A DNA stretch of 64,000 nt from Desulfovibrio aminophilus DSM 12254 (GTDB taxonomy: Bacteria; Desulfobacterota; Desulfovibrionia; Desulfovibrionales; Desulfovibrionaceae). The stretch's first letter is position 1. Each line of letters starts with the position of its first letter. A model generated the notes under the pieces. The model was not told the DNA's origin. It saw nothing but the letters and a program-made list of their open reading frames with translations, and searched no databases. This document shows, piece after piece, positions 16,901-60,414 of the stretch. The DNA lies in NCBI RefSeq assembly GCF_000422565.1, contig NZ_KE383875.1, forward strand, positions 7,501 to 71,500, written 5' to 3'. A program made the position numbers and the translations under genes.

Positions 16901-16944
16901 TAATGCCCGCAAAAGGAATTGCAGCCCCAACAAGGAGGTTTCCC

Positions 16945-17865
16945 ATGTCCCTGGTCATCAACCACAACCTGATGGCGATGAACGCCGCCCGGAACCTGGG
17001 CCAGGCCTACGGCCAGCTCAGCGTCTCCACCCGGCGTCTGTCCTCGGGCCTGCGCGTGGGCACCGCCGCCGACGACGCCGCGGGCCTGGCCATCCGCGAG
17101 CTCATGCGCGCGGACATCAGCTCCCTGCAGCAGGGCGTGCGCAACGCCAACGACGCCATCTCGCTCATCCAGACCGCCGACGGCGCGCTCCAGGTGGTGG
17201 ACGAGAAGCTCATCCGCATGAAGGAGCTGGCGTTGCAGGCCGCCACCGGCACCTACAACTCCGACCAGCGCCTGATCATCGACTCCGAGTACCAGGCCAT
17301 GGCCTCGGAAATCACGCGAATCGCCAACGCCACCGACTTCAACGGCATCTATCTGCTCAACGGCAACCTGTCCGGCGCCATGAGCACGCACAACGGTCAC
17401 GGCCTGGATTCCACCGGCCCGCTGAAGATCCACTTCGGCACCGGCAACGACTCCGCCGAGGACTACTACTACATCGCCGTCGGCGCGGCCACGGCCTCGG
17501 CCCTCGGCCTCGGCCACTCCTCGGCGGCCAAGACCGGCACCGGCGACGCCGTCAACGCGGGCAAGTCCATCTCCACCCAGGGCTTGGCCCAGGCCGCCCT
17601 GGAGGCCATCAACCAAGCCATCATCTCCAAGGACAAGATCCGCGCGAACCTCGGTTCCATGCAGAACCGCCTGGAAAACACCATCACCAACCTGACCATC
17701 CAGGGCGAAAACCTGCAGGCCGCCGAATCCCGCATCTCGGACGTGGACGTGGCCAACGAGATGACCGAATTCACCCGCCAGCAGATCCTCTCGCAGTCGG
17801 CCGTGGCCATGCTGGCCCAGGCCAACTCCCTGCCGAAGATGGCCCTGCAGCTCATCAGCGGTTGA
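16945..17865 (+). CDS. flagellin
   Basis: A 306-residue filament subunit. The conserved N-terminal D0/D1 region (SLVINHNLMAMNAARNLGQAYGQLSVSTRRLSSGLRVGTAADDAAGLAI) and C-terminal region (ESRISDVDVANEMTEFTRQQILSQSAVAMLAQANSLPKMALQLI) are both complete. The variable central domain is very short (about residues 145-205), giving a minimal flagellin. The ATG at 16945 has AAGGAGGT upstream. Expression is predicted from its own sigma-54 promoter, and a strong terminator follows, so it is monocistronic. Confidence 0.97.
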   Translation: MSLVINHNLMAMNAARNLGQAYGQLSVSTRRLSSGLRVGTAADDAAGLAIRELMRADISSLQQGVRNANDAISLIQTADGALQVVDEKLIRMKELALQAATGTYNSDQRLIIDSEYQAMASEITRIANATDFNGIYLLNGNLSGAMSTHNGHGLDSTGPLKIHFGTGNDSAEDYYYIAVGAATASALGLGHSSAAKTGTGDAVNAGKSISTQGLAQAALEAINQAIISKDKIRANLGSMQNRLENTITNLTIQGENLQAAESRISDVDVANEMTEFTRQQILSQSAVAMLAQANSLPKMALQLISG

Positions 17866-17948: not shown

Positions 17949-18650
17949 TCAATCCAGGCCCTGGGCGGCGAGGTGTTCCAGGGCGGCCTGGGCCGCGGCC
18001 TGTTCGGCCTTCTTCAGACTCCCGCCCGTGGAGGTGAAGGCGAGATCCCCGGGGAGCCGCAGCGTGACCTCGAAGATCTTCTCGTGCTCCGGGCCGGATG
18101 CTCCGGACAGAACATAGCGCGGACGCTCCCGGAAATGTCGCTGGGTCACTTCCTGCAAACGGCTCTTGTGATCCTTGGGGTCGGCGCAGTCCGCGTCGTC
18201 CGGCCACTTGTCCTCCAGCAGGCCGAGGATGCAGGCCCGAGCCGCCTCGAATCCAGCGTCCAGGAACACGGCTCCGAACAAGGCCTCCAGCGCGTCCGCC
18301 AGCAGCGCCTCCCGGTTTCGGCCGCCCTGGCTCTCCTCGCCGCGCCCCAGGCGCAGGCAGACGTCCAGGGAGATGCCCCGGGCCAGACGAGCCAAGCTCT
18401 TCTCCTTGACCAGCTTGGCCCGGATCTTTGTCAGCCGCCCCTCGTCGGCCTCCGGGTAGCGCCGGAAGCACTCCGCCGAGACGCACAGCTCCAACACGGC
18501 GTCGCCCAGAAATTCCAGGCGTTCATTGTCCGGGACGGCCTGCTCCTGCTCGTTCGCGTAGGAACTGTGGGTCACCGCCTCCCGCAAGAGCTTGACTTGC
18601 CCGAAACGATGATGGATACGTTCTTGAAGTTGCTCGAAAACCTCATCCAT
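17949..18650 (-). CDS. rnc: ribonuclease III
   Basis: A 233-residue double-strand RNA endonuclease for rRNA and mRNA processing. The RNase III signature [13 protein letters not shown] lies near residue 44. A second acidic motif ([19 protein letters not shown]) provides the remaining Mg-binding residues. The C-terminal third is a double-stranded RNA-binding domain ([15 protein letters not shown]...[15 protein letters not shown]). The start at 18650 lies only 21 bases from the divergent acetate-CoA ligase gene, so the two promoters must overlap or lie within the genes. Confidence 0.96.
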
Positions 18651-18671
18651 TGAGCGCTCCGCCGGGTCGCA

Positions 18672-20774
18672 ATGCATTCCGATGCCCCCCTCAAGGCCCT
18701 GTTCGAGCCTCGGTCCGTGGTGGTAGTGGGGGCTTCCCGCCACCCCGGCAAGGTCGGACACACGGTCCTGTCGAACCTCGTCTCCTCCGGGTATACGGGG
18801 AAAATCCTGCCCGTCAACCCGGCGGGCGGAGACCTCCTCGGCCTGCCGGTGCTGCGCGACGTGTCCGAACTGCCCGACGGTCCGGACCTGGCCGTGATCT
18901 GCCTGCCCCGCGAAAAAGTCCGCCCCGTGCTGGAGGCCCTGGCCGCCAAGTCGTTGCGCGCGGCCATCGTGCTCGCCGCCGGTTTCAAGGAAACCGGCAA
19001 GGACGGCTGGCGGCTGGAAGAGGAGCTGGCCAGGATCGCCCGCCGCCGGGGCATCGTCCTGTTGGGGCCCAACTCCCTGGGACTGATGAACGCGCCCTTC
19101 GGCCTGAACGCGAGCTTCGCCCGGGCCTGCCCGGCTTCCGGCAACATCGCCTTTTTTTCCCAGTCCGGGGCCCTCTGCGCGGCCATCCTGGATTGGGCCG
19201 TGTCCGAAGACATGGGCTTCTCCAAGTTCGTGAGCCTGGGCAACAAGGCCGTGCTCTCCGAGGCCCACATGCTGGAGGCCCTGGGCGACGACCCGGACAC
19301 GCGGGTCATCCTGGGCTACTGCGAAAGCGTGGACAACGGCCAGGAACTTCTTTCCGCCGCCCAGAGGGTCACGGCCAAGAAACCCGTGGTCATGATCAAG
19401 GCCGGCGCCACCCCGGCGGGCGCGCGCGCCGCCTCCAACCACACCGGCTCCCTGGCGGGATCGCCACCGGCCTATGAGGCCGCCTTCCGCCAAGCGGGCA
19501 TCCTGCACGCCCCGGACGTGGAGAGCCTCTTCGACCTGGCCGGGGCCTTCTCCTCCCAGCCGCTGCCCAAGGGCCCCAACTTGGTGGTGGTCACCAACTC
19601 CGGCGGTCCCGGCATCCTGACCGCCGACGCCTGCGAGAACTCGCGGCTCCAGCTCATGCGCCCCGGCGCGGCCACCCTGGAGCGCCTGCGCACGGTCCTG
19701 CCGTCCTTCGCCTCGCTGTACAATCCCATCGACATCATCGGCGACGCCGACGCCGCCCGCTACCGGGCCACGCTGGAGGCCGTGCTGGCCGACGAGATGG
19801 CCCACGCCGTGCTCGTGCTCCTCACGCCCACCTCCGCGGCCCAGATCGAGGAGACCGCCCGGGCCGTGGTCGAGGCTTCCAAGGACTGCGGCAAGCCCGT
19901 GTTCGCCTGTTTCATGGGCGGCCCCCGGGTGGCCCCGGGCCGGGACATCCTGGTGGAGGCCGGAGTGCCCTGCTACGCCTTCCCCGAATCCGCCGTGCGG
20001 GCCATGGAGGCCATGTACGCCTATCATTCCTGGCGCAGCCGGGCCTATCCGGTGGAAATCTGCTTCCGACGCGACAAGGGCAAGGCCGAGTCCCTGCTGC
20101 GCGAGGCGCGGGCCACCGGCCTCGCCGACCTTTCCGAAAGCCAGGCCATGCAGCTGGCCCTGGCCTATGAACTGCCCGTTCCCGAGACGAAATTCGCCCG
20201 CACCAGCGACGAGGCGGCCAGGATCGCCAAACGCATCGGTTTCCCCGTGGCCCTGAAGATCGCCTCCCCGCACCTGGTCAGCAAGGCCGCCGCCGGGGGC
20301 GTGGCCCTGGGCCTGTCCGACGCCGAAGCCGTGCGCCGGGCCTTCCTGGAGCTGACCTCGCGCCTGGCCCGCACCCGCGAAGACGTGCACGTCACCGGCT
20401 GCATGGTCCAGGCCATGGGCCCGGCCGACGCGCGCGCCGTGGCGGTCTGGATGCGCCGCGACCAACAGTTCGGGCCGCTGCTCTCCTTCGGTCTGGCCGG
20501 TGCCTACACCGACGTCCTGCACGACCTCACCTTCCGCCTGGCCCCGCTCACCGTGGGCGACGCCCAGGAAATGGTCCGCGAAATCAAAACGTTTCCCCTG
20601 CTGCGCGGGGTGCGCGGCCAGAAACCCGCCGCCTTGGGCGCCATCGAGGACATCCTGCTCACCGTTTCCCAGATCGCCGTGGACTTCCCGGAGATCGCGG
20701 AGGTCGAGCTCAACCCCATACTGGTCAACGAGGAGGGCGCGGTGGTGGCCGACGTGAAGATCGCCATCGCCTGA
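18672..20774 (+). CDS. acetate-CoA ligase (ADP-forming), fused alpha/beta, copy 1
   Basis: A 700-residue NDP-forming acyl-CoA synthetase that makes ATP from acyl-CoA. Domains run CoA-binding (residues about 5-135), succinyl-CoA-ligase-like (about 150-300) with the phospho-acceptor His257 in [11 protein letters not shown], and a C-terminal ATP-grasp domain (about 475-700, ending [20 protein letters not shown]). It is paralogous to the protein at 53788-55896 and likewise followed by a DRTGG protein. No convincing ribosome site precedes the ATG, which is only 21 bases from divergent rnc. The acyl substrate could be acetate or a branched/aryl acid. Confidence 0.92.
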
Positions 20775-20793
20775 TCCCCCCGAGGAGAACGAC

Positions 20794-21855
20794 ATGCCCG
20801 GACTCTACATCGGCTCCACTTCCGGCTATTCCGGCAAGAACATGATCATCATGGGCATCGGCCTCCACTTCCGCAAGGAGGGGCTGAACCTGGGCTACAT
20901 GAAGCCCGTGGGCGCCATGCCCCTGGAAAAGGACGGCCGCCTCGGCGACGAGGACGCCTTCTTCGTCCAGGACGTGCTCGGTCTGGACCAGCCCGTTGAG
21001 GACGTGACCCCGGTGGTCGTGACCCACGACTTCAAGGTCAAGGCCTTCGCCGGCCCTTGCGGCGGGCTGCTGGAACGCATCGCGGAAAGCTACGGCAAGA
21101 TCAGCCAGGGCCGCGACCTGACCCTGGTGGGCGGCTCCGGCTCCATGTACTCGGGCAAATACTGCTGCACCGACGGCGTGTCAGTGGTCCAGCGCCTGGG
21201 CCTGAAGACCGTGGTCATCGACCGTTTCCAGAAGGAGCTGCACTACGACACCCTGGTGGTCCTCAAGGAGGCCCTGGGCGACCAGCTCCTGGGCGTGGTC
21301 CTCAACGACATCCCGCCGGCCTTCATGGACGAGGTGGAAAATCTCATCGCGCCCTTCCTGAACAGCCGGGGCATCAAGGTTCTGGGCATCATCCCCAAAG
21401 ACCCGCTCATGGGCGCCATCAAGGTGGCCGATTTGGCCGAACGCCTGGGCGGCAAGATCATCTCGGCCCACAACAAGGCCGAGCGGGTGGTGGAGAACTT
21501 CCTCATCGGCACCATGCAGGTGGAGAACTTCATGACCCACTTCCGACGGAGCAAAAACTCGGCGGTCATCGTGGGCGGCGACCGGGCCGACGTGCAGCTG
21601 GTGGCCCTGGAGGGCGACTGCCCCTGCCTGGTGCTCACCGGCAACCTCTACCCCAACGACATCATCCTGACCCGCTCCGAGGTGCTCGAAACGCCGATCA
21701 TCATGGTCCGCGAGGACACATACTCCGTGGCCAAGAAGATGGAGACCATCCTCTCGCGCCACAAGCTGCGCGACGCCATCAAGATCCGCCAGGGCGCGGA
21801 ACTGGTGGCCCGGCACCTGGACTTCGCGGCCATCCGCGAAGGCTTGGGTCTCTAA
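20794..21855 (+). CDS. stand-alone BioD-like/DRTGG-domain protein (Pta N-terminal-type), copy 1
   Basis: A 353-residue protein matching only the N-terminal half of long phosphotransacetylases. A BioD-like AAA_26 part comes first ([41 protein letters not shown]). The DRTGG domain follows ([19 protein letters not shown]...[20 protein letters not shown]). The catalytic PTA domain is absent. The phosphate loop ends GKN instead of GKS/T, so nucleotide binding is uncertain. It starts 19 bases after the acetate-CoA ligase with GAGGAG upstream. It probably senses a metabolite and tunes the ligase; this is inferred from its position, repeated at 52656-53729. Confidence 0.85.
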
Positions 21856-48524: not shown

Positions 48525-48827
48525 CTAGACGTCGTAATCCAGCACGCCTCGCCCGGAAACCACCTGGGCGATGAACCGCACGCATTTCTGGTGCTCGGGA
48601 TGCGGCTGATAGGCGGCCAGGTCCGCCCGCGTGGCGAATTCGGAATAGAGCACCACCTGGCAGGCCGGAGAGGCGTTGAACACGTCCGTGCTCACCTCGA
48701 TGTGCAGCAGCCCGGGAATCCGCCCCTCAAGGGCCTCGAGCATGCGTTTCATCTCGGCCGCGTTCTCGGCCGCGCTCTTGCCTTGGGCCTCGTCCTTGAG
48801 GGTCCACATGACGATGTGCTTGATCAT
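48525..48827 (-). CDS. Dabb-domain (stress-responsive A/B barrel) protein
   Basis: A 100-residue ferredoxin-like-fold protein of the Dabb family (MIKHIVMWTLKDEA...LEGRIPGLLHIEVSTDVF...VVLYSEFATRADLAAYQPHPEHQKCVRFI). The ATG at 48827 overlaps the end of the FMN-dehydrogenase gene (ATGA) with GGAGG upstream. Last gene of the lactate operon. Dabb proteins include small dimeric enzymes and cofactor-handling proteins; the role here is unknown. Confidence 0.9.
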   Translation of the reverse strand: MIKHIVMWTLKDEAQGKSAAENAAEMKRMLEALEGRIPGLLHIEVSTDVFNASPACQVVLYSEFATRADLAAYQPHPEHQKCVRFIAQVVSGRGVLDYDV

Positions 48828-49846
48828 CGACGGCCTCCGTTGAAGAGAATGCGCCCGTCCACGGCCGCCAAGTCGGCGCAGCCGGTGAGGACCATGGAGC
48901 GGATCAATTCGCCGCGCAGCTGCTCCAGGTAGGCGGTCACGCCGTCCTTGAGCCCGCCCACGGCGGCCACGCTGAAGGGACGCCCGATGAGCACGGCGTC
49001 CGCGCCCAGGGCCAGCATCTTGAGCACGTCCTCGCCGGTGCGCACGCCGCCGTCGGCCAGAATCGCGATCTCGCCGCGCACGGGCGCGGCCACTTCGGCC
49101 AGAACCTCGGACACGCCCGGCGTGTGGTCCAGCACCCGTCCGCCGTGGTTGGAGACGACGATGCCCGCCGCGCCCACGTCGCGGGCCATCTTGGCCTCGT
49201 CGGCGGTCATGATGCCTTTGAGCACGAAGGGCACGGGACTCCACTCAATGATCTCACGCAGCTTTTCCGGGGTCTTGGGCGACACCGGGCGGCCCATCTT
49301 GCGCAGCGTGACCAGCCCGGCGGCGTCGATGTCCATGCCGAGAATCCTGGCCCCGGCGTCCAGGGCGCCCTCCAGCTTGCGGTAGAGTTCCTCGTCCTCC
49401 CAGGGCTTGATGAACGGGATGCCGTGGCCGTCCGCCTCGCGGATGGCGGCGAAGGCTTCCTTGTGGATGACCTCGGGCACGCCGTCGCCGGTGCAGCCGA
49501 GGCTTCCGGCCTCCTTGCAGCCGAGGACCACGGCCCGGATGTAGTCGGCCTCGGACACGCCGCCGCCCATGTTGAAGGACACGCCTCCAATGGGCGCGGC
49601 CAGCACGGGCAGGGAGAGCTTGACGCCCAGCAGCTCCCGCGAGGTGTCCGGCTGCACGGCCTCGTGGATGAGGCGCATGTTCAGCCGCACCGAGGCCAGG
49701 GCCGAGACGTTGTTCATGAACGCCCGCCCCGTGCCCAGGCCGCCCATGCCGGGAACCTCACCGGCGCAGGCGCGGCCGTCGCAGACCGGGCAGACCCGGC
49801 AGAATCCCTTCATCAGTTCACGGGCATGCGCCCGGACTTCCTTCAC
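48824..49846 (-). CDS. FMN-dependent alpha-hydroxyacid dehydrogenase
   Basis: A 340-residue TIM-barrel flavoenzyme of the lactate/glycolate oxidase superfamily. The FMN-site stretches are clear: LPVLAAPIGGVSFN, FVLKGIMTADEAKMARDVGAAGIVVSNHGGRVLDHTPG (catalytic His and Arg) and ILADGGVRTGEDVLKMLALGADAVLIGRPF. The N-terminus is unusual: FCRVCPVCDGRACAG has four cysteines (CxxCxxCxxxxC) that could bind metal or an Fe-S cluster. It starts at a GTG with AGGAGGTT upstream. In a lactate operon it probably oxidises a 2-hydroxyacid. Confidence 0.88.
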   Translation of the reverse strand: MKEVRAHARELMKGFCRVCPVCDGRACAGEVPGMGGLGTGRAFMNNVSALASVRLNMRLIHEAVQPDTSRELLGVKLSLPVLAAPIGGVSFNMGGGVSEADYIRAVVLGCKEAGSLGCTGDGVPEVIHKEAFAAIREADGHGIPFIKPWEDEELYRKLEGALDAGARILGMDIDAAGLVTLRKMGRPVSPKTPEKLREIIEWSPVPFVLKGIMTADEAKMARDVGAAGIVVSNHGGRVLDHTPGVSEVLAEVAAPVRGEIAILADGGVRTGEDVLKMLALGADAVLIGRPFSVAAVGGLKDGVTAYLEQLRGELIRSMVLTGCADLAAVDGRILFNGGRR

Positions 49847-49858
49847 GTGACGAACCTC

Positions 49859-52006
49859 CTACTTGATCTGCTGGGCCAAGATTTCGGCCATGTGCTTGAC
49901 GCGCATGGGCGAGCCCTTCTTTTCCAGGCCGCCGCGCAGCTGCATGACGCAGCCGGGGCAGTCCGTGACCAGGGTCTGCGCCCCGGTGGCCTCGGCATGG
50001 TCCAGCTTCTTGGCCAGAAGCTCGGCCGACAGCTCCGGGAACTTCATCGAGAAGGTGCCGCCGAATCCGCAGCAGACCTCCTCTTCCTCGGAGGGCTTAT
50101 AGTCCAGGCCCGCGTCGCGCATCAAGTCGCGGGGGGCGTCCTTCACGCCCAGGCCCCGGCAGAGATGGCAGGGAGCATGATAGGTCACGCTGCCGCCGTC
50201 CTTGCGGAAGTCCTCGGGCGTGAGCTTGAGCACGTCATGCACGAAGGAGCTGAAGTCGATGACCTTGTCCGCGAACTGACGGACCTTCACGGCCCAGGCC
50301 GGGTCGTCGCCCAGAAGCTTCAGATAGCCGTGCTTGAGATGCGAGGCGCAGGAGGCGCAGAGCGTGAGGATGTAGTCGTACTTGCCCGGGTCCAGGGCCC
50401 GGATGTTCTGCTTGGCCACGTCGCGGGCCGCGGCGATCTCGCCCATCATGACCACCGGCAGGCCGCAGCAGGACTGGTCCATGGGGAAGTCCAGGGCCGC
50501 GCCCTTGCCCGCCACCACATTGACCGCGGCCACGCACTGCTCGGGATAGACGAAGTCCTGCACGCAACCCGAGAACAGGCCCACGCGGTAGCGCGGGGAT
50601 TTGACCTCGGGGCGGATGCGCGGCCAAAGGTCGCGGAAGGGCTTGGCCGCGATTGCCGGCAGGACGCGGAAGCCCTGGTCCTTGGCCAGAAGCATGGGCA
50701 GGTGGCGGATGTAGCCGCCCGAGACCACTGGCTTCTGGGCCAGCTTGGCCGTACGCAGCAGACTGTGAAAGAGCTTGCGGTTCTTGAGCACGGCGGCCAG
50801 GAGCGTGCTGGGGGCGGAGTGCCCCTCCTCGTCCAGGATGCGGGCGTGAATCTCCTTGATGAGCGTGGGCAGGTCGATGCCCGCCGCGCAGACCGCCTTG
50901 CAGGCCCCGCAGTTGATGCAGTTCTGAACCAGGTTCTTGGCCTTGTCCCGGCCGTGGAAGAAGTAGGTCAGGATCAGGCCGATGGCCCCGATGTAGATGT
51001 GCCCGTAGCGATGACCTCCCACCAGGCGGTACACCGGGCAGACATTGGCGCAGGCCCCGCAACGCACGCAGCGCAGCACCTGGGAGAAGAGCGGATCGCG
51101 GGCCAGGGCCGAGCGGCCGTTGTCCAGGAAGACGATGTGCATGATCTTCTTGCCGTCGGGAGACGCGGCGCACTCGTTGCGCCCGTTGATCCAGGTCACG
51201 TAGGAAGAGATGGCCTGGCCCGTGGCGTTGCGCGGCAGCACGCGGAGCACCCGCAGGCCCTCGGCCAGGGTCGGGGTGAGCTTGTCCAGACCCATGAGGG
51301 CCACATGCACCCTCGGCAGGGTGGTCACCAGACGGGCGTTGCCCTCGTTGGTCACGATGCCGATGGCCCCGGTCTCGACCACGGCCATGTTCGCGCCGGA
51401 GACGCCCATGTCGGCCTCGATGTAGCGCGGCCGAAGTTCTCGGCGGGCCACCTTGACCAGCTTCTCGATGTCCACTTCCTGCTTCTGCTTGGTGACCTCG
51501 CTGAACAGATCGGCCACCTGGTAGCGCGAGAGGTGGATGGCGGGCATGACCATGTGGGTCGGGCCCTCGCCGCGCAGCTGGATGATCCACTCGCCCAGGT
51601 CCGTCTCGGTGACCTCGTAGCCTTCGGCCTCCAGGTGATCGTTGAGGTGGATCTCCTCGGCGGTCATGGACTTGGACTTGACCACGTATTTGACGCCGTT
51701 CTCCTTGGCGATGGCCGCGATGATCTCGTTGGCCTCGCGGGCCGTGCGCGCCAAGTGAACCTTGACCCCGGCGGCCTCGGCCTTGGCCTTGAACTGCTCG
51801 TAAAGTTCGTCCATCCGCGCGGCGGCCTTGTCCTTGGCCTCCGCGATCTCGCGGATGAGCCCGTCCACATCCATGCCGGCGAAGGCCCGGGCCCGGGCTC
51901 CGGGATAAAAGCGGGCGAACTTGTCCATGGCCTGGCGCAGGAACTCGTCGCCCAGGGCCTCGCGCAGCTCCGCGCGGTATTCCTTGAGATTCTTCGCTTG
52001 CTGCAT
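49859..52006 (-). CDS. LutA/LutB-type fused iron-sulfur lactate oxidation protein
   Basis: A 715-residue protein that joins what Bacillus encodes as LutB and LutA. The N-terminal LutB-like (DUF162) part has GVSGANMAVVETGAIGIVTNEGNARLV. Two [4Fe-4S] motifs follow (CVRCGACANVCP, CINCGACKAVC). The C-terminal half has two CCG domains (GCVQDFVYPE...SCCGLP...CASC; HAPCHLCRG...CCGFGG...CPGC). The domain order matches the large iron-sulfur subunit of the Desulfovibrio L-lactate dehydrogenase locus. lutC precedes it by three bases. Confidence 0.92.
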   Translation of the reverse strand: MQQAKNLKEYRAELREALGDEFLRQAMDKFARFYPGARARAFAGMDVDGLIREIAEAKDKAAARMDELYEQFKAKAEAAGVKVHLARTAREANEIIAAIAKENGVKYVVKSKSMTAEEIHLNDHLEAEGYEVTETDLGEWIIQLRGEGPTHMVMPAIHLSRYQVADLFSEVTKQKQEVDIEKLVKVARRELRPRYIEADMGVSGANMAVVETGAIGIVTNEGNARLVTTLPRVHVALMGLDKLTPTLAEGLRVLRVLPRNATGQAISSYVTWINGRNECAASPDGKKIMHIVFLDNGRSALARDPLFSQVLRCVRCGACANVCPVYRLVGGHRYGHIYIGAIGLILTYFFHGRDKAKNLVQNCINCGACKAVCAAGIDLPTLIKEIHARILDEEGHSAPSTLLAAVLKNRKLFHSLLRTAKLAQKPVVSGGYIRHLPMLLAKDQGFRVLPAIAAKPFRDLWPRIRPEVKSPRYRVGLFSGCVQDFVYPEQCVAAVNVVAGKGAALDFPMDQSCCGLPVVMMGEIAAARDVAKQNIRALDPGKYDYILTLCASCASHLKHGYLKLLGDDPAWAVKVRQFADKVIDFSSFVHDVLKLTPEDFRKDGGSVTYHAPCHLCRGLGVKDAPRDLMRDAGLDYKPSEEEEVCCGFGGTFSMKFPELSAELLAKKLDHAEATGAQTLVTDCPGCVMQLRGGLEKKGSPMRVKHMAEILAQQIK

Positions 52007-52009
52007 GGC

Positions 52010-52636
52010 CTAATCCTCCAGGAGCAGGATGTGGAGTTCCAGGGGGCCGTGGACGCCCAGGGCCAGGACGCGCTCGATGTCGGCGGTGCGGCTGGCTCCG
52101 GTGACGAAGGCCGTGTAGCTCGGCTGGACGCTGGTGAGCGCCACCAACTCGGCCTCCAAGTCCCGGGATGTCTCGCGAATCTTGGACTGGGGCAGCACGG
52201 CCACGTGGAACTCCGCGATCATGGTGGCCAGGCGCAGTTCCTCGCTGTTGGAGATGATGACCAGGGTGCCGGTCTCGGCGATGCCGAAATCGGCCAGGGT
52301 GAAGCCGATGTCCACTCCGCCAAGATGGTCGCGCATGCCCTTCTCGATACAGAGAATGCCGCGCTCCCGGGCCGATCCCTCCAGGTCGGCAAAGAATTCG
52401 GGAGAAAGGCCAGGCGCGGCGATGACCTTCTGCTGTTTGGTCTCGCACAACGCCTGGCCCTTTTCCGACAGGGGCTCCGAGCAGCCGGAAACCAGCAGCT
52501 GACAGGCCTGTTTCTTGTCGCAGACGTCCAGCGCGTAGGCCACGGCCTCGCGCATGGAAGCGACCTTGGAGACCACGGCCGAGACGGCCTTGGCCTTTTC
52601 CTCGAACAGCTCGACAGGATTCCGGTTCTCGTTCAT
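52010..52636 (-). CDS. lutC: LutC-type lactate utilisation protein
   Basis: A 208-residue LUD-domain protein. The diagnostic region is DIGFTLADFGIAETGTLVIISNSEELRLATMIAEFHVAVLPQSKI, followed by FVTGASRTADIERVLALGVHGPLELHILLLED. It works with the fused LutA/LutB-type protein downstream in L-lactate oxidation. I chose the ATG at 52636 (MNENRNPVELF), with a GGGGG stretch upstream; the longer frame overlaps the leader of the gene. Confidence 0.9.
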   Translation of the reverse strand: MNENRNPVELFEEKAKAVSAVVSKVASMREAVAYALDVCDKKQACQLLVSGCSEPLSEKGQALCETKQQKVIAAPGLSPEFFADLEGSARERGILCIEKGMRDHLGGVDIGFTLADFGIAETGTLVIISNSEELRLATMIAEFHVAVLPQSKIRETSRDLEAELVALTSVQPSYTAFVTGASRTADIERVLALGVHGPLELHILLLED

Positions 52637-52655
52637 TCCCGCCCCCTTGTTTGAA

Positions 52656-53729
52656 TCAGACGCCGAGCTTCTTGCGCAGCGCGGGTACATCCACGTTGGC
52701 GTTGATGAGCTGGGCCCCGTGGTTGATCTTGATCTGGGCGCGCAGCTTCTGGGTCGCCTGCACCGTCTCCATGAGCTTGGCCGTGGAGAAGGTGTCGCCC
52801 CGAACCACGATCATCGGCACGCCGAGCACCTCGGCCCGGGTCATGATGATGTCGTTGGGATAGAGGTTGCCCGTGAGCACGAGACAGGGGCAGTTGCCCT
52901 CCAGGGCCACCAGCTGCAGATCGGCGCGGTCGCCGCCCACCAGGACTGCGGCGTTCTTGACGCGCTGGAAGTGGGTCAGGAAGTTCTCCACCTGCATGGT
53001 GCCGATGAGGAAGGTGTCCACCAGCCGGTCGGCCTTGTTCGCCGCGGTGATGATCCGGCCGCCCAGGCGCTCGGCCAGTTCGGAGACCTTGATGCCGCTC
53101 ATGAACGGATCGTGGGGCACGATTCCGAAGACGTCGATGCCGCGCACCTTGAGCGAGGGCTCCACCAACTCCTTGGCCTCGTCCATGTAGCTCGGGTGCA
53201 CGTCGTTGAGCACGGCGCCCAGCAGCTCGCACTCGCGGGACTCAAGGATGTCCTTGGCCGAGAGCAGATAGTCGTAGTTCAGCTCTTTGTTGAAGCGGTC
53301 GATGAGCAGCGTCTTGGCGCCCAGGGCCGCGACCACCGAGGGGCCGTCCACGGAGCAGTACTTGCCCGCGTGCAGGAAGCTGCCCGAACCGCTGATGATC
53401 ATCACGTCCTTGCCCTTGGACAGTTCACCGTAGGCCTTCACGATCCTGTCCAGCAGGCCCTGGCAGGGCGTGCGGAAGGCCTTGATCTTGAAGTCGCGGG
53501 TCACGAGCACGGGCGTGACCAGCTCGGGATCCTGGGACAGGCCGAGCACGTCCTGGACGAAGAAGGCGTCCTCGTCGCCCTCCTTGCCCTTGCCCAGACC
53601 GGGCATGGCGCCCACCGGCTTCATGTAGCCGACGTTGAGGCCTTCCTTCTGCAACTTGAGCCCAAGGGCCATGGCCATGAGGTTCTTGCCCGCGAACTGC
53701 GCGGTGGAGCCTATGTACAAACCGACCAT
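52656..53729 (-). CDS. stand-alone BioD-like/DRTGG-domain protein (Pta N-terminal-type), copy 2
   Basis: A 357-residue paralogue of the protein at 20794-21855, alike along its whole length. BioD-like motifs ([41 protein letters not shown]) precede the DRTGG domain (AAVLVGGDRADLQLVALEG, TRAEVLGVPMIVVRGDTFS). As in copy 1, the phosphate loop ends GKN and no PTA catalytic domain follows. In the known Desulfovibrio operon this position holds full-length pta. It directly follows the ADP-forming acetate-CoA ligase. I infer a regulatory role. Confidence 0.85.
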   Translation of the reverse strand: MVGLYIGSTAQFAGKNLMAMALGLKLQKEGLNVGYMKPVGAMPGLGKGKEGDEDAFFVQDVLGLSQDPELVTPVLVTRDFKIKAFRTPCQGLLDRIVKAYGELSKGKDVMIISGSGSFLHAGKYCSVDGPSVVAALGAKTLLIDRFNKELNYDYLLSAKDILESRECELLGAVLNDVHPSYMDEAKELVEPSLKVRGIDVFGIVPHDPFMSGIKVSELAERLGGRIITAANKADRLVDTFLIGTMQVENFLTHFQRVKNAAVLVGGDRADLQLVALEGNCPCLVLTGNLYPNDIIMTRAEVLGVPMIVVRGDTFSTAKLMETVQATQKLRAQIKINHGAQLINANVDVPALRKKLGV

Positions 53730-53787
53730 TGTCGTCCTCCGTATCCTTGTGAATGAGAAGTGATCAGCCGCCGAAACCGTCCCCCGT

Positions 53788-55896
53788 TCAGGAGGACAGG
53801 GTCATGCGCACATCGGCCACGATGGCCTTTTCGCTGTTCACCAGCACCGGGTTGAACTCGGCCTCGTAGATCTCCGGGAAGTCCTGAGCCAGTTGGGACA
53901 TGGTCAGGAGGATGTTCTCCAGGGCGTCGAAGTTCACCGGCGCCTCGCCGCGCACTCCCTTGAGGAGCATGTAGGACTTGATCTCGCGGATGATGTCGCG
54001 GGCGTCCTCGCGCGACAGCGGGGCCAAACGGAAGGCGATGTCCTTCAGGATCTCGACGTAGATGCCGCCCAGACCGAACATGAGCAGCGGCCCGAACTGG
54101 TCGTCGCGCTTGAAGCCGATGATGATCTCCTTGACGCCCTTGGGGGCCATCTCCTGGACCAGGCAGCCCGCGATGTAGGCGTCGGGGCGCAGGCGCTGGG
54201 CCCGGCTGGTGATGTCCCAGAACATCTTGCGCACGCCCTCGGCGTCCTGGATGTTCACCTTCACGCCGCCCACGTCGGACTTGTGGGATATCTGCGGCGA
54301 GGCGATCTTGAGCACCACCGGGTAGCCGATGGCCTCGGCGGCGGCCACGGCCTCGTCGCTGGACTTGGCCAACACGGTCTTGGGCGTGGGCAGGTTGTAG
54401 GCCCGCAGGACTTCCTGGGCCTGGAACTCGACCACCTCGGTGGCCCCGGAGGCGCGCACCTGCTTGAGCAGGTTGCGGACCTTGCCGGTGTCGCCCTTGA
54501 TCTCGGCGTACTCGGGCCGACCCTTCTGCCTCCAGGCGGAATAGAGATACATGGCCTCGATGCTCTTGATCGCCGACTCGGGGAAGGAATAGCAGGGGAT
54601 GCCCGCCTCCTGGAGCATGCGCCGGCCGGGGTCGACGCGCATCTTGCCCATGTAGCAGGTGAAGATCGGCTTGTCGGTCTTCTTGGCGACCTCGATGACG
54701 GCCTTGGCCGTCTCCTCGATCTCGGCCGAGGAGGTCGGGGTCAGGAGCACCAGGATCGAATGGATCATCGGATCGTCGATGATGATGTCCAGGGTGGCCT
54801 TGTAGCGCGTGGCCGGGGCGTCGCCGATGACGTCGATGGGGTTGTACAGCGAGGCGAACGGCGGCAGGGCCTCGCGCAGCTTCTCAATGGTCTCGTTGCT
54901 GATCCGGGCCATGGTCAGCTTGGATTTTTCCGTGGCGTCGGCGGCCATGATGCCGGGACCGCCGGAGTTGGTCACGATGGCCAGGTTCGGGCCCTTGGGC
55001 AGCGGCTGGGTGGAGAATGCCTGGGCGAAGTCGAACAGCGAGGACAGGTCGTCCACGCGGATCACGCCGGTCTGGCGGAAGGCCGCGGTGTAGGTCGCGT
55101 CCGAGCCGGCGATGGCGCCGGTGTGCGAGCTGGCGGCCTTGGCGCCGGCGGCCGTGGTGCCGGACTTGACCATGATGATCGGCTTCTTGCGGCTGACCTC
55201 GGCGGCCTGCTGCAGGAAGTACTGCCCCTGCTCCACGTTCTCGATGTAGCCGAGCACGACGTTGGTGTCGTCGTCCTTGCCGAGGTACTCAAGCATGTGC
55301 GCCTCGGAGAGCACGGCCTTGTTACCCAGGCTGACGAACTTGGAGAAGCCGATGTTCTCGCCCAGGGCCCAGTCGAGAATGGCGGTGCAGAGTGCGCCGG
55401 ACTGGGAGAAGAAGGCGATCTTGCCCTTGGGCGGCTGGCCCGAGGCGAACGAGGCGTTGACCTGGCTGCCGGTGTTGATCATGCCGAGGCAGTTGGGGCC
55501 CACCAGGGCGATGCCGTGCTTCTTGCACAGCTCGGCCATCTCCTGCTCCAGGTGGTAGCCTTCCTTGCCCACTTCCTTGAAGCCCGCGGTGATGACCACC
55601 ACCGAGCGCGTGCCGATGTCGGCCAGCTCCTTGAGCGCGGGCATGACCGCGTCGCGCGGCACGGTGATCACCGCCATGTCCAGGCCCTTGGGCAGGTCCG
55701 GAATGCGGTTGACCACCTTCAGGCCCTCGATCACCGAGGCCTTCGGGTTCACCGGGATCAGTTCGCCCGTGTAGCCCGCCCGGAGCATGTTGGCCACCAC
55801 GGTGTGCCCGATCTTCCCCGGCTTGTCCGAGGCGCCAATGACGGCCACGGCCTTGGGGTAGAACAAGGCGTCCAGGTTCTTTCGCATCGTGTCCAT
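53788..55896 (-). CDS. acetate-CoA ligase (ADP-forming), fused alpha/beta, copy 2
   Basis: A 702-residue enzyme: acetyl-CoA + ADP + Pi to acetate + ATP + CoA. CoA-binding domain at about 5-135, succinyl-CoA-ligase-like domain with phospho-acceptor His258 (ASSHTGAIAGSD), and ATP-grasp from about 475. The context (lactate permease, lactate dehydrogenases, PFOR) makes acetyl-CoA the natural substrate. It stands where pta-ackA stand in the related Desulfovibrio operon. It is very similar to copy 1 at 18672-20774 and has the same downstream partner. Confidence 0.94.
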   Translation of the reverse strand: MDTMRKNLDALFYPKAVAVIGASDKPGKIGHTVVANMLRAGYTGELIPVNPKASVIEGLKVVNRIPDLPKGLDMAVITVPRDAVMPALKELADIGTRSVVVITAGFKEVGKEGYHLEQEMAELCKKHGIALVGPNCLGMINTGSQVNASFASGQPPKGKIAFFSQSGALCTAILDWALGENIGFSKFVSLGNKAVLSEAHMLEYLGKDDDTNVVLGYIENVEQGQYFLQQAAEVSRKKPIIMVKSGTTAAGAKAASSHTGAIAGSDATYTAAFRQTGVIRVDDLSSLFDFAQAFSTQPLPKGPNLAIVTNSGGPGIMAADATEKSKLTMARISNETIEKLREALPPFASLYNPIDVIGDAPATRYKATLDIIIDDPMIHSILVLLTPTSSAEIEETAKAVIEVAKKTDKPIFTCYMGKMRVDPGRRMLQEAGIPCYSFPESAIKSIEAMYLYSAWRQKGRPEYAEIKGDTGKVRNLLKQVRASGATEVVEFQAQEVLRAYNLPTPKTVLAKSSDEAVAAAEAIGYPVVLKIASPQISHKSDVGGVKVNIQDAEGVRKMFWDITSRAQRLRPDAYIAGCLVQEMAPKGVKEIIIGFKRDDQFGPLLMFGLGGIYVEILKDIAFRLAPLSREDARDIIREIKSYMLLKGVRGEAPVNFDALENILLTMSQLAQDFPEIYEAEFNPVLVNSEKAIVADVRMTLSS

Positions 55897-55927: not shown

Positions 55928-57223
55928 TCAGCCCAAGGTTTCGGCGTAGAGTTCCACGGGATGGCGCACCGCCACCCGGTCCCCGGCCTTGGAAAGCATG
56001 TCCGTGATCTGGAGCATGCAGGCCGGGCAGCCCGTGGCCACCACCTGGGCCCCCGAGGCCGCGATGTTGTCCCGCTTCTTCTTGCCGATCTTGCGGGCCA
56101 AGTCGTAATGCAGGAGCGTGAAGCTGCCGCCGCACCCGCAGCAGGTGTCGGCGTCCTTCATCTCCACCAGTTCCACGTTGGGATTGAGCCGCACCACCTG
56201 GCGCGGCTGGGCCGCCACTCCCAGCGACTTCTTGAGGTGGCAGGGATCGTGCACCGTGACCTTCATGTCCTTTGCCCCGGGCACGCCGCTCGGCTGAACC
56301 TTCAAGATGTCCACCAGGAACACGTTTATGTCCAAAGTCTTGGCCGCCAATGCCGCCAGGGCGTCGCGGCGCCCCTGGTCGGCCGAGTCCGCGAACGTCG
56401 GCCAGAACTTCTTGATCGTGGAGGTGCAGGTGGCGCAGGGGGTCACCAAGTAATCGAAAGAGCCCCCGGCGAAGCACTCCAGATTCTTGTCCACCAATAC
56501 ATCATAACTCTTGCGGTCGCCCGAGGACAAGGCCGGGATGCCGCAACAGGCCTGATGGTCGGGGAGGAAGACGCCCACCCCGTGATGCTCCAGCACCTTG
56601 AGCACGGCCTTGCCCACGCGGGGAAAGACCTTGTCCACCATGCAGCCGGGGAAGAAGCCGACTTTCAGGCCGCTGTTGCCCTTGGCCGTGTCCAGGCTGG
56701 GCACGGTCTTGTGCAGGGACTCCCCGGCCAGGGCCGGAAAGTGCCGGTCGCCGATGATGTCGGACTGGAAGCGGGCGCAGGAGGAGCCGAGCATCTCGTT
56801 GACCGGCTTGACGAACAAGCCCTGGAGCTTGGCCCCCAGGCCCAGGATGGCGTTGAACAGTCCTGGACGCACGAGCAGGCCCCGGAAGATGAGCTTCTTG
56901 GCCGGGGGCAGCCCCATATAGCCAGTGAGCACGGCCCGGGCCTTGAGGAAGATGTCCAGGACCTTGACCCCGCTGGGACAGTTGGCCGCGCAGGCGCCGC
57001 AAAGCAGGCAGGTCTCGACCTTCTCCTTGACCGCCTCGGCGTCCTGGATCATCTCGTGGGCCAGATGCTCCAGAAGGGCGATCTTGCCGCGGGCCACCAG
57101 GGCCTCGCGTCCGGTTTCGGCATACAACGGGCAGACGGCCTGGCACGTGCCGCAGCGCATGCAGGTGACCAGCTGGTCGTCAAGCTCCATGAGCAGCTTG
57201 TGAAGTTCGCGCACGTCGGCCAT
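55928..57223 (-). CDS. GlcF/GlpC-type iron-sulfur subunit of lactate dehydrogenase
   Basis: A 431-residue electron-transfer subunit. Two [4Fe-4S] motifs (CMRCGTCQAVCP near residue 21 and CLLCGACAANCPSG near 72) are followed by two CCG domains (GCMVDKVFPR...ACCGIP...CATC; HDPCHLKKS...CCGCGG...CPAC). It begins three bases after the GlcD-type gene and is its obvious partner, passing electrons from the FAD subunit to the membrane pool. Confidence 0.94.
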   Translation of the reverse strand: MADVRELHKLLMELDDQLVTCMRCGTCQAVCPLYAETGREALVARGKIALLEHLAHEMIQDAEAVKEKVETCLLCGACAANCPSGVKVLDIFLKARAVLTGYMGLPPAKKLIFRGLLVRPGLFNAILGLGAKLQGLFVKPVNEMLGSSCARFQSDIIGDRHFPALAGESLHKTVPSLDTAKGNSGLKVGFFPGCMVDKVFPRVGKAVLKVLEHHGVGVFLPDHQACCGIPALSSGDRKSYDVLVDKNLECFAGGSFDYLVTPCATCTSTIKKFWPTFADSADQGRRDALAALAAKTLDINVFLVDILKVQPSGVPGAKDMKVTVHDPCHLKKSLGVAAQPRQVVRLNPNVELVEMKDADTCCGCGGSFTLLHYDLARKIGKKKRDNIAASGAQVVATGCPACMLQITDMLSKAGDRVAVRHPVELYAETLG

Positions 57224-57226
57224 GGC

Positions 57227-58615
57227 CTACTCCTCCCCGAGGATCTTGCCCGGATTGAGGATGTTCTTGGGGTCCAGGGCCTTCTTCAGTCGGCGGGAAT
57301 AGAGGATGGTTCCCCGGCTGGTTTCCTTCTCCATCCACTTGGACTTGGCGATGCCGATGCCGTGCTCACCGGAGAGGGTGCCGCCGAGGCTCAGGGCCAC
57401 CTCGAAGATCTCGTTCACGGCCTGCTCGACGCGTTCGAACTCCTGCTTGTCCCGACGGTCGGTGAGGATGGTCGGGTGCAGGTTGCCGTCGCCGGCGTGG
57501 CCGAAGGTGCCGATCTGCAGCTTGTACTTGGCCGCGATCTCGTCCAGGGCCTTGATCATGGCCGGAATCTTGCTGCGCGGCACGGTGGCGTCCTCGAGCA
57601 CCGTGGTCGGACGTACGCGGGCCAGGGCCGAAAGGGCCGCCCGGCGGGCTTCCCAGACCTTGTTCCGCTCTTCGGCGCTTTGGGCCACATGCAGGCCGGC
57701 GGCGCCCATCTTTTTGCAGATGGCCTCCACCTGGGCGGCCTCGTCGGCCACCTGGGCCGGATGGCCGTCCACCTCGATGAGCAGCAGGGCCTTGGCGTCC
57801 ACGGGCAGGCCCGCGTGAGCGAAGGCCTCCACCGTGCGGATGGTGAAGTTGTCCAGGAACTCCAGGGTGCAGGGCACGATCTTGGCGGCGATGATGGCGG
57901 CCACGGTCTGGGAGGCCTTGGCCACGTCGTCGAAGAGGACCATCATGGCCTTGTTGGCAGCCGGCGGGGGCACGAGCTTGAGGACGATTTCGCTGAAAAC
58001 GCCCAGGGTGCCCTCGGAGCCGACCATGAGCCCCGCCAAATTCAGGCCGGTGACGCACTTCACGGTGCGCGAACCGGTGACGATCTTCTCTCCCTCGGTG
58101 TCGAAGAAGTTCACGCCCATGACGTAGTTCTTGGTCACGCCGTATTTCAGCCCGCGCAGGCCCCCGGCGTTCTCGGCCACGTTGCCGCCCATGGTGGACA
58201 CGGCCTGGGAGCCCGGGTCCGGCGGATAGAACAGACCTCGGGCGGCCACCTCTGCCGCGAACTTGGCCGTGATGACCCCCGGCTCCACCACCGCGTACAG
58301 GTCTTCCTGGTTGATCTCCAGGATGCGGTTCAGGGCGTTGGTCAGAACCACGATGCCGTCGCGGGGGTCCGGAATGGTGCCGCCCGAGAGGTTGGTGCCC
58401 GAGCCGCGCACGGTCACGGGCAGGCCGTTCTCGCCGCAGAGCTTGACCACCTTGCCCAGGGTCTCGGTGCTTTCCGGGCGGACCACAAGGGCCGGCACCA
58501 CGGGCTGCAACACGGCGGAATCATATGAATAGGCATGACGGTCGGCTTCGCTGTCCATGACGTTGGACTCGCCGACGATCGCCTTGAATTCCTTGATGAG
58601 AGCTGCGCTCAGCAT
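57227..58615 (-). CDS. GlcD-type FAD-linked lactate/glycolate dehydrogenase
   Basis: A 462-residue flavoprotein of the VAO/PCMH family. The FAD region is GLPVTVRGSGTNLSGGTIPDP and PPDPGSQAVSTMGGNVAENAGGLRGLKYGVTKNYVMGV. The C-terminal cap has FGHAGDGNLHPTIL and LSGEHGIGIAKSKWM. It probably oxidises D-lactate to pyruvate, in the same place as the D-lactate dehydrogenase of the Desulfovibrio operon. The ATG at 58615 has GGAGG upstream. A strong intergenic hairpin lies between it and lldP. Confidence 0.94.
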   Translation of the reverse strand: MLSAALIKEFKAIVGESNVMDSEADRHAYSYDSAVLQPVVPALVVRPESTETLGKVVKLCGENGLPVTVRGSGTNLSGGTIPDPRDGIVVLTNALNRILEINQEDLYAVVEPGVITAKFAAEVAARGLFYPPDPGSQAVSTMGGNVAENAGGLRGLKYGVTKNYVMGVNFFDTEGEKIVTGSRTVKCVTGLNLAGLMVGSEGTLGVFSEIVLKLVPPPAANKAMMVLFDDVAKASQTVAAIIAAKIVPCTLEFLDNFTIRTVEAFAHAGLPVDAKALLLIEVDGHPAQVADEAAQVEAICKKMGAAGLHVAQSAEERNKVWEARRAALSALARVRPTTVLEDATVPRSKIPAMIKALDEIAAKYKLQIGTFGHAGDGNLHPTILTDRRDKQEFERVEQAVNEIFEVALSLGGTLSGEHGIGIAKSKWMEKETSRGTILYSRRLKKALDPKNILNPGKILGEE

Positions 58616-58694: not shown

Positions 58695-60332
58695 CTAAGG
58701 CAGCATCCACTTCAACACGTAGGCCTGGAGCATGGTCAACACGCTCACCACCAGGACCATGGCGATGGAGTGCGGCAGGGTGAAGCGGAAGATGTCGCCT
58801 TCACGCCCGACCATGTTGGAGGCCGCCGTGGCCACGGAGATGGACTGCGGCGAGATCATCTTGCCGGTGACGCCGCCGGAGGAGTTGGCCGCCACGCACA
58901 ACGCGGGATCCACGCCGATCTGCTGCGCCGTGGTCTTCTGCAGCGATCCGAAGAGGGCGTTGGAGGACGTGTCCGAACCGGTCAGGAACACGCCGAGCCA
59001 GCCCAGGATCGGGGCGAAGAACGGGAACAGCGAACCGGTGGCCGTGAAGGCCAGACCCATGGTCGAACTCATGCCGGAGAAGTTCATGATGTAGGCCAGG
59101 CCCAGGATCATGGCGATGGTCAGGATCGGGAAGCGCAGCTGGTAGATCGTGCGGTTGAAGCAGGAGAAGGCCTTGCCGAAGCCGTACTTGGGGATCACCA
59201 GCACCGAGAGCAGGCCGGAGAAGAAGATGGCCGTGCCCGCGGCCGAGAGCAGGTTCAGGTTGAACACCGCGCCGTAGGGCACGTCCTTGGCCACGATGGG
59301 GGCGGTCTTCAGAACGACGTTGTGCAGACCGGGCCAGCTGATCTTGATGAGCAGGATGCCGTCAAGGAACTTCTTCACGCTCTCCAGACCCCAGAGAAGA
59401 ACCATCACGGCCAGGATGATGTAGGGCGTCCAGGCGCGGAGCACCTCGCCCATGCCGTACTCGCACTTCACGGGTCCGCCCGCGGACGGGGCCTCGTCCG
59501 GGAAATGCCACACGTTCTTCGGCTTCCAGACGCGCAGGAAGGCGCCCAGGCCAACGATTGTGATGATGGCCGACATGATGTCGGGCAGATAGGGACCATG
59601 ATAGTTGGAGAAGATGAACTGGGAGCCGGCGAAGCACACGCCGGCCACGAGCACGGCCGGGAGCACTTCCATGGCGCGCTTGAAGCCGCTCATGGTCACG
59701 GCCAGCCAGAGCGGCACGATCACGGACAGGAAGGGCAGCTGACGTCCGCAGATCTGGCTGATCTTCATCACTTCCAGGTCCGAGACCTTGGCCGCCACCA
59801 CGATCGGGATGCCGATGGCGCCGAAGGCCACGGGCGCGGTGTTGGCGATGAGGCAGATGCCCGCCGCGTAGAGGGGGTTGAAGCCCAGACCCACGAGCAT
59901 GGCCGCGGTGATGGCCACCGGAGTGCCGAAGCCCGCAGTGCCCTCGATGAAGGAACCGAAGGCGAAGGCCACCAGGATGGCCTGGAGCCGCCGGTCGTCC
60001 GTGATGCTCGCCAGGGAGTTCTTGATGATTTCGAACTCCCCGGACTCAACGGTCATGTTGTAGATCCAGATGGCCGTGATGACGATCCAGACGATGGGGA
60101 AGAGGCCGAAGGCCGCGCCGTAGACCGTGGCGTTGAGCGCCAGTCCGGCGGGCATGCCCCAGGCGAAGATCGCCAGGAGAACGGCCACCAGGGTGGCGAC
60201 GATGGCGGCCTTGTGGCCCGCCATGCGTTTCACCGCCAGCATGTAAAAAAGGATGTACAAGGGGATGCCCGCCACCAACGCCGATACCAGGATGCTTCCC
60301 AGCGGATTGTAAGCCTGAATCCAGCTTTCCAT
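58695..60332 (-). CDS. lldP: L-lactate permease
   Basis: A 545-residue secondary transporter with about 12-14 transmembrane helices of the LctP family. Typical stretches: FEIIKNSLASITDDRRLQAILVAFAFGSFIEGTAGFGTPVAITAAMLVGLGF, NTAPVAFGAIGIPIVVAA and LTGSDTSSNALFGSLQKTTAQQIGVDPALCVAANSSGGVTGKMISPQSISVA. The ATG at 60332 with GGAGGA upstream is preferred over an open stretch 15 codons longer. It takes in the lactate used by the rest of the operon. Confidence 0.96.
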   Translation of the reverse strand: MESWIQAYNPLGSILVSALVAGIPLYILFYMLAVKRMAGHKAAIVATLVAVLLAIFAWGMPAGLALNATVYGAAFGLFPIVWIVITAIWIYNMTVESGEFEIIKNSLASITDDRRLQAILVAFAFGSFIEGTAGFGTPVAITAAMLVGLGFNPLYAAGICLIANTAPVAFGAIGIPIVVAAKVSDLEVMKISQICGRQLPFLSVIVPLWLAVTMSGFKRAMEVLPAVLVAGVCFAGSQFIFSNYHGPYLPDIMSAIITIVGLGAFLRVWKPKNVWHFPDEAPSAGGPVKCEYGMGEVLRAWTPYIILAVMVLLWGLESVKKFLDGILLIKISWPGLHNVVLKTAPIVAKDVPYGAVFNLNLLSAAGTAIFFSGLLSVLVIPKYGFGKAFSCFNRTIYQLRFPILTIAMILGLAYIMNFSGMSSTMGLAFTATGSLFPFFAPILGWLGVFLTGSDTSSNALFGSLQKTTAQQIGVDPALCVAANSSGGVTGKMISPQSISVATAASNMVGREGDIFRFTLPHSIAMVLVVSVLTMLQAYVLKWMLP

Positions 60333-60414
60333 AAACTCCTCCAAGCGGTTGTCGGAAACATCCGCGGGGCCCCCCATGGGTCTTGAGCATCAGGTGATTC
60401 CTGCCCGCGAACAA

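Follow-up and report, generated by a model that had tools for sequence, protein, structure and literature searches.

A stand-alone BioD-like/DRTGG protein accompanies ADP-forming acetate–CoA ligases and may regulate acetate formation in Bacteria and Archaea

In Desulfovibrio vulgaris the acetate step of the organic-acid-oxidation operon (luo) is encoded by pta and ack, as the first-pass annotation of the DNA studied here had stated. Replacement of this gene pair by an ADP-forming synthetase in the same operon has already been published (Vita et al. 2015, PMC4481167); in the accessible parts of that paper the legend to Figure 9 refers to six species without saying which. The same parts place DVU3031, an AAA plus DRTGG protein devoid of PTA_PTB, beside the full class II pta and ack genes of D. 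vulgaris, and ascribe the same pair of domains to the N-terminal half of class II Pta. We analysed a stretch of 64,000 nucleotides from Desulfovibrio aminophilus DSM 12254 (contig NZ_KE383875.1, positions 7,501 to 71,500; the window), in which an ADP-forming acetate–CoA ligase (ACD), ACD1, is followed by a stand-alone BioD-like/DRTGG protein, D1. Recurrence of this pair in many relatives and in salt-loving archaea suggests that the second protein controls the conversion of acetyl-CoA to acetate. The replacement itself being known, it is the general pairing of ACD and DRTGG genes across Bacteria and Archaea that seems to be new as far as our literature searches reach; no description of the link was found among the literature matches listed, subscription papers lying mostly outside that reach.

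The operon of the window, which lies wholly on the minus strand, runs por-lldP-glcD-glcF-ACD-DRTGG-lutC-ldhH-FMN dehydrogenase (Table 1). Open reading frames and Pfam matches bear out the Desulfovibrio order recognized in the first-pass annotation, whose coordinates, strand and lengths for the two proteins are correct. The fused ligase it had put in the acetate place is likewise substantiated. ACD1 carries CoA_binding_2, Succ_CoA_lig, Ligase_CoA_2 and ATP-grasp_5 in a single chain, scores above the curated NCBIfam cut-off for TIGR02717, acetate–CoA ligase alpha (582.9 versus 567.15 bits), and has both phospho-histidines, His258 and the second catalytic His538. By domains, cut-off and histidines, ACD1 is a predicted ADP-forming acetate–CoA ligase. 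D1 contains AAA_26 and DRTGG, the domains of the N-terminal half of class II Pta, and lacks the catalytic PTA_PTB.

The acetate kinase family has no match anywhere in the source genome, whose completeness is given as 99.98%. Nor does this genome contain a Pta, its sole PTA_PTB match being weak (27.9 bits) and belonging to PlsX (FA_synthesis, 193 bits). The proposed replacement of pta-ackA holds genome-wide, and the ligases are the only predicted route found in the source genome by which acetyl-CoA yields ATP with acetate as product. DRTGG domains occur at three places in this genome (E 0.001), each directly after an ACD: in the lactate operon, on contig C11, and in the window at 18672-21855, a pair that the first-pass annotation had overlooked. 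Chance adjacency was rejected because the probability of finding all three DRTGG genes directly behind ACDs is near 1e-8, taking about 3,000 genes (our estimate) and the six ACD-like places of the genome.

Related genomes show the same association. An acetate kinase match is present in 107 of 121 good Desulfovibrionaceae genomes; a stand-alone DRTGG protein is matched at about E 1e-130 or better in every one of the 13 good genomes listed without a kinase match, and none of these 13 has a Pta at E 1e-30 (G132 is off the printed list of genomes without a Pta match, yet is absent from the Pta matches). At least one DRTGG gene lies behind an ACD in each of the eight acetate-kinase-less genomes read (G000, G028, G060, G061, G005, G014, G020 and G120; G060 is 87% complete and stands outside the 13). 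The pair cannot be regarded as a mere stand-in for pta-ackA: of the 128 genomes matching acetate kinase, 87 match DRTGG as well (E 1e-35 or better, counted from lists). In the DRTGG tree the window genus stands apart from Solidesulfovibrio and in the ACD tree the two are weakly joined (0.359), which bears on whether pta-ackA was replaced in luo on two independent occasions.

We took a census of the neighbours of DRTGG proteins, each distinct protein requiring 600 bp or more of upstream sequence; an ACD was counted when it lay on the same strand and no more than 350 bp upstream. Three proteins with less than 600 bp upstream were dropped, and matches below 90 bits or 250 residues were left uncounted, so that the census misses distant members. 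Proteins identical over their first 340 residues gave one count and near-identical ones were counted separately. The loci are a non-random sample (the 30 best family-scan matches, genus representatives of our choice, the best 80 named contigs, and 60 phylum-scan regions plus loci), and 'Desulfovibrionales' denotes a grouping by how loci were fetched. An ACD lies upstream of 98/128 Desulfovibrionales proteins, AckA of 3/128 and neither of 27/128; the pairing for which the first-pass annotation had proposed a survey is seen for most of the proteins counted. For other Desulfobacterota an ACD precedes 48/65 proteins and neither precedes 17/65; for the fetched haloarchaea the figures are 3/4 and 1/4. 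Plasmid records matching the DRTGG homologue number 13, 10 of them haloarchaeal and 3 bacterial (one annotated pta), and an ACD is directly upstream in 9 of the 10. The two genes overlap by 4 nt in all three annotated haloarchaeal records opened; the fourth, unannotated record has no ACD visible beside the DRTGG gene. ACD homologues occur in 272 plasmid records (E 1e-60) and are far commoner there than the DRTGG homologue; most ACD relatives therefore have no DRTGG partner. Co-inheritance of the pair is apparent from the correlation of ACD and DRTGG tree distances (r 0.724, n=127), 1000 permutations giving a maximum of 0.175.

Partners other than ACD were also found. Of the 17 other-Desulfobacterota proteins without a directly upstream ACD, 15 (all but those of L212 and L216) were inspected for neighbours: genes of acetate or acetyl-CoA metabolism lie within a few kb of seven, and by eye near none of the other eight. 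L239 has a gene for AMP-forming acetyl-CoA synthetase (Acs) immediately before the DRTGG gene; L261 and L264 have one two genes after it, and L282 has one on the opposite strand. The gene immediately before the DRTGG gene of L276 is for acetyl-CoA hydrolase/transferase, which L239 encodes as well, two genes upstream. The ACDs of L240 and L243 are farther away or lie on the other strand. The first-pass annotation had suggested a portable regulator of the acetyl-CoA to acetate branch: portability is borne out, with ACD, pta-ackA, Acs and acetyl-CoA hydrolase as neighbours, and regulation is the part that we infer.

Several neighbourhoods are recorded here as observations in their own right. The acetyl-CoA hydrolase/transferase is fused to a GNAT acetyltransferase domain in L239:7242-9098 (-) and L276:155-2104 (+). 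A stand-alone DRTGG gene faces a luo-type cluster (LdhH, LutC, AckA, Pta) on the opposite strand in L140:7001-15059. The DRTGG genes of L268, L269, L270, L272 and L274 sit, by eye, amid a cluster resembling twin-arginine-exported oxidoreductases with cytochrome-like genes, a redox context. Open frames of 944-1285 aa (family f28, G274) were considered as natural ACD–DRTGG fusions and rejected, the genes being in different frames in eight of nine loci checked. In L228:4413-6899 (-) an ACD is in frame with a DRTGG half and the BioD half is absent; it comes from a single assembled genome, may be an artefact, and was given zero weight.

A structure model of D1 (mean predicted local distance difference test score 88.7, from an alignment of 16 sequences) places a BioD fold ahead of the DRTGG domain. 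The predicted model superposes on dethiobiotin synthetase with Z 21.4 and a root-mean-square deviation of 3.1 over 217 residues, and on the DRTGG domain of AF1212 with Z 17.8 and 36% identity. The conserved residues include some with functional roles in BioD: Gly14, Lys15, Asn16, Pro38, Asp52 and Asp54 are present in 128/128 Desulfovibrionales proteins, Asn175 in 127/128 and Lys37 in 126/128. The P-loop of BioD has the motif GK[TS], seen as GKT in the alignment to 1dts; D1 instead has GKN, as do all 128 Desulfovibrionales proteins, and Thr or Ser follows the lysine in 43/65 proteins outside the order. We read this as D1 probably binding nucleotide without hydrolysing it, because the P-loop lysine is retained and the Ser/Thr after it is replaced by Asn.

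The explanation we favour, and hold to with moderate confidence, is that the D1 family comprises nucleotide-responsive accessory subunits or regulators of acetate-forming enzymes, counterparts in trans of the N-terminal half of class II Pta. Stand-alone BioD/DRTGG proteins would partner enzymes of acetyl-CoA and acetate metabolism, mostly an ACD encoded just upstream. The BioD-like P-loop domain, the DRTGG domain or both would bind an adenine nucleotide without catalysis, and D1, docked on the ligase, would adjust to the energy state the reaction by which acetyl-CoA + ADP + Pi give acetate + CoA + ATP. Among adenine nucleotides, Ap4A is a signal to which CBS-type regulators bind (PMC13039410, in part).

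Several observations weigh against this explanation. A directly upstream ACD is missing for the 27 Desulfovibrionales and 17 other proteins with neither neighbour in the census, and no acetate genes were seen by eye near the DRTGG gene in L268, L269, L270, L272, L274, L275, L277 and L279, eight loci that count against a strict acetate role. The tree correlation falls to 0.397 (n=82) within Desulfovibrionales, and much of either value reflects shared descent. According to the accessible parts of Vita et al., DVU3031 takes no part in lactate oxidation, and it is missing from the co-migrating proteins that those parts name (PMC4481167). In favour of the explanation, a mutant survey of 2023 found DVU3031 to be important when D. 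vulgaris grows on L-lactate, its function being left undetermined in the parts available (PMC10102598). That phenotype could be polar because DVU3032-3033 lie downstream. The protein itself is listed in a proteome table of 2024 (PMC10920352, seen in part).

The L-lactate phenotype also fits a different role, in which D1 serves the downstream L-lactate dehydrogenase (LutC/LdhH) in assembly or regulation and its place after the ACD reflects operon order only. Here, as in D. vulgaris, the DRTGG gene does lie between the acetate step and the L-lactate dehydrogenase genes. However, just 12 of 82 Desulfovibrionales ACD–DRTGG pairs belong to the lactate-operon class, and in none of the three haloarchaeal records opened that are annotated does the annotation show a LutC/LdhH-type gene close to the pair; we regard this role as unlikely. 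A similarly low probability attaches to D1 being an enzyme in its own right, an ATP-dependent, BioD-like ligase or kinase whose substrate is a product of the acetate step. The predicted BioD fold with Lys15, Lys37, Asp54 and Asn175 conserved would suit such an enzyme, as would the Thr or Ser of many proteins outside the order, but the invariant Asn within Desulfovibrionales would not. Moreover, DRTGG domains are otherwise found in class II Pta and Mn-dependent pyrophosphatases, where they are regulatory. D1 might alternatively be a generic structural or chaperone subunit of ACD with no response to a ligand. Tight adjacency, and gene overlap in haloarchaea, would be expected of such a subunit, yet the D1 family conserves nucleotide-binding-like residues, has partners other than ACD and persists where ACD is absent, all of which makes this rather improbable.

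The first-pass annotation had seen in D1 a Pta whose catalytic half was lost while its sensor half was kept. The domain content on which this was based stands, but the descent does not. D1 has identities of 0.19-0.22 to 14 Pta N-terminal halves of its own family, which form a single separate clade (support 1.0) on a long branch, of 0.29-0.34 to four stand-alone haloarchaeal proteins, and of 0.50 or more to the stand-alone proteins of Desulfovibrionales included in the tree. Stand-alone copies also adjoin full pta-ackA in the luo operons of L097 and L111, each only 0.21 identical to the Pta N-terminal half of its own locus, and two further D1 paralogues accompany ACDs elsewhere in the source genome. 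A remnant left when ACD replaced pta-ackA would account for the domain order, for a Pta model match over residues 4-371 (94.5 bits, far under the cut-off of 418) and for the ACD standing where D. vulgaris has pta-ackA (PMC4481167, in part), but is very improbable and was rejected because the Pta N-terminal halves are about 20% identical and form a separate clade whereas the haloarchaeal stand-alone proteins are closer. Judged by identities and tree, D1 is a predicted member of an old family of stand-alone BioD-like/DRTGG proteins.

Table 1. Features of the window (positions are those of the window).
Feature	Position	Strand	Basis
Flagellin; marks the conserved fliC-rnc-ACD2-DRTGG2 locus	16903..17865	+	by eye and synteny
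RNase III (rnc); approximate start; marks the fliC-rnc locus	17949..18660	-	by eye and synteny
ACD2, 700 aa; full Pfam domain set; alpha His present, second His replaced by Ser	18672..20774	+	residue check, Pfam
D2, second stand-alone BioD/DRTGG protein, 353 aa; 19 bp after ACD2	20794..21855	+	
FMN-dependent dehydrogenase family protein; operon end	48824..49846	-	family scan
LdhH, L-lactate dehydrogenase large subunit	49859..52006	-	1109 bits versus cut-off 800
LutC-like (LUD domain) L-lactate dehydrogenase subunit	52010..52690	-	family scan
D1, stand-alone BioD-like/DRTGG protein, 357 aa, without PTA_PTB	52656..53729	-	Pfam, model
ACD1, ADP-forming acetate–CoA ligase, 702 aa; His258 and His538	53788..55896	-	Pfam, NCBIfam, residue check
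GlcF-like iron-sulfur subunit, probably of D-lactate dehydrogenase	55928..57223	-	role by homology to DVU3028
GlcD-like FAD subunit, probably of D-lactate dehydrogenase	57227..58615	-	role by homology to DVU3027
Lactate permease, LctP family	58695..60377	-	family scan
Pyruvate:ferredoxin oxidoreductase, 1176 aa	60453..63983	-	by eye and operon position (cf. DVU3025)

The listed start of the LutC frame overlaps D1; by eye, the real start is probably at about 52636. The second pair of the window, ACD2 and D2, lies beside flagellin and RNase III genes, an arrangement common to many loci of the order. ADP-forming synthetases relay a phosphoryl group over two histidines (PMC4500148 and PMC11494057, each in part), and ACD2, although an intact gene, does not have both. 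The first histidine is kept in 124/127 ACDs that precede a DRTGG gene, all three losses being at the fliC-rnc locus. The second is lost from 25/39 ACDs at that locus versus 2/88 elsewhere (lactate operon 0/12, rest of the order 2/31, outside the order 0/45), and the two exceptions (L135 and L138) group with fliC-locus ACDs in the tree. The residues in its place vary (Ser, Tyr, Asn, Arg and others). The main Pfam domains are kept in the four histidine-loss ACDs inspected, ACD2 and those of L125, L148 and L158, the last having lost the first histidine.

Eight of the second-histidine-loss loci have a median ratio of non-synonymous to synonymous divergence (dN/dS) of 0.115 (28 pairs), and seven histidine-keeping fliC-locus loci one of 0.208 (20 pairs), with dS near saturation in these larger sets (ACD medians 1.32 and 1.24); values for the window genus are noisy (0.06-0.53, few close pairs). 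These ratios show apparent purifying selection on the eight ACD genes, and the pairing suggests that a pseudo-ligase is under selection at the flagellin locus. Many fliC-locus ACDs carry another histidine three residues upstream of the lost one, which could replace it; loss of activity is therefore something we infer. The D2-type clade (79 tips, support 0.923) has flagellin or rnc beside 59 members, and an ACD beside 52/79 and not beside 27/79, requiring nine parsimony changes, the direction of which the method does not give. Broken ACDs occur at three fliC-locus loci from two genomes (L157; L098 and L180, the latter two on the same contig). Because such decayed copies are seen, the pattern points to probable loss rather than gain of ACD. 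At L105:4576-5008 the ACD gene is reduced to remnants, with the flagellin/rnc genes on one side and an intact DRTGG gene on the other. We put forward tentatively, as a possible but doubtful reading, that the fliC-rnc pair is a non-catalytic sensor module, in which a pseudo-ligase and a BioD/DRTGG protein would sense acetyl-CoA/CoA and adenine nucleotides and influence in trans either the formation of acetate or some unrelated process, the pseudo-ligase later being lost and the sensor kept in several lineages.

Among known systems, the substitution described by Vita et al. is the same, in the same operon, as that represented by ACD1; the accessible parts of that account mention no adjoining DRTGG gene, paralogous pairs or lost histidine (PMC4481167). 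D1 belongs with DVU3031 of D. vulgaris Hildenborough, which the first-pass annotation had missed beside its intact pta-ackA: both are AAA plus DRTGG proteins without PTA_PTB, encoded in luo between the acetate step and the L-lactate dehydrogenase genes, but upstream of DVU3031 stand full class II pta and ack genes (as far as the available text goes), whereas upstream of D1 stands a single ACD. His258 and His538 of ACD1 match the residues of two-histidine synthetases, 256/535 in Nmar_0206 (PMC11494057, in part) and His257alpha/His71beta in the Pyrococcus furiosus ACD (PMC4500148, in part); unlike these, ACD2 and 24 other fliC-rnc ACDs have no second histidine. The N-terminal half of class II Pta (DVU3029 type) shares the BioD-like plus DRTGG architecture of D1, but is fused to PTA_PTB and falls outside the D1 family in sequence and tree. 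Archaeoglobus fulgidus AF1212, whose neighbour AF1211 we take to be an ACD, shares the DRTGG domain with D1. The numbering of its structure (PDB 2ioj, 206-321) suggests the same full-length layout; that structure covers only the C-terminal domain. On haloarchaeal plasmids, for example at L283:5001-6071, the name 'phosphotransacetylase family protein' is misleading, the layout not bearing out Pta activity. If the favoured explanation of D1 as a regulator is true, that annotation would need correcting, and Bacteria and Archaea would control the acetyl-CoA/acetate branch by a common regulator, one that stands beside an ATP-grasp ligase or inside a phosphotransacetylase, as in class II Pta. These haloarchaeal proteins, encoded after an acetate–CoA ligase, have the gene order of ACD1 and D1 and are 29-34% identical to D1.

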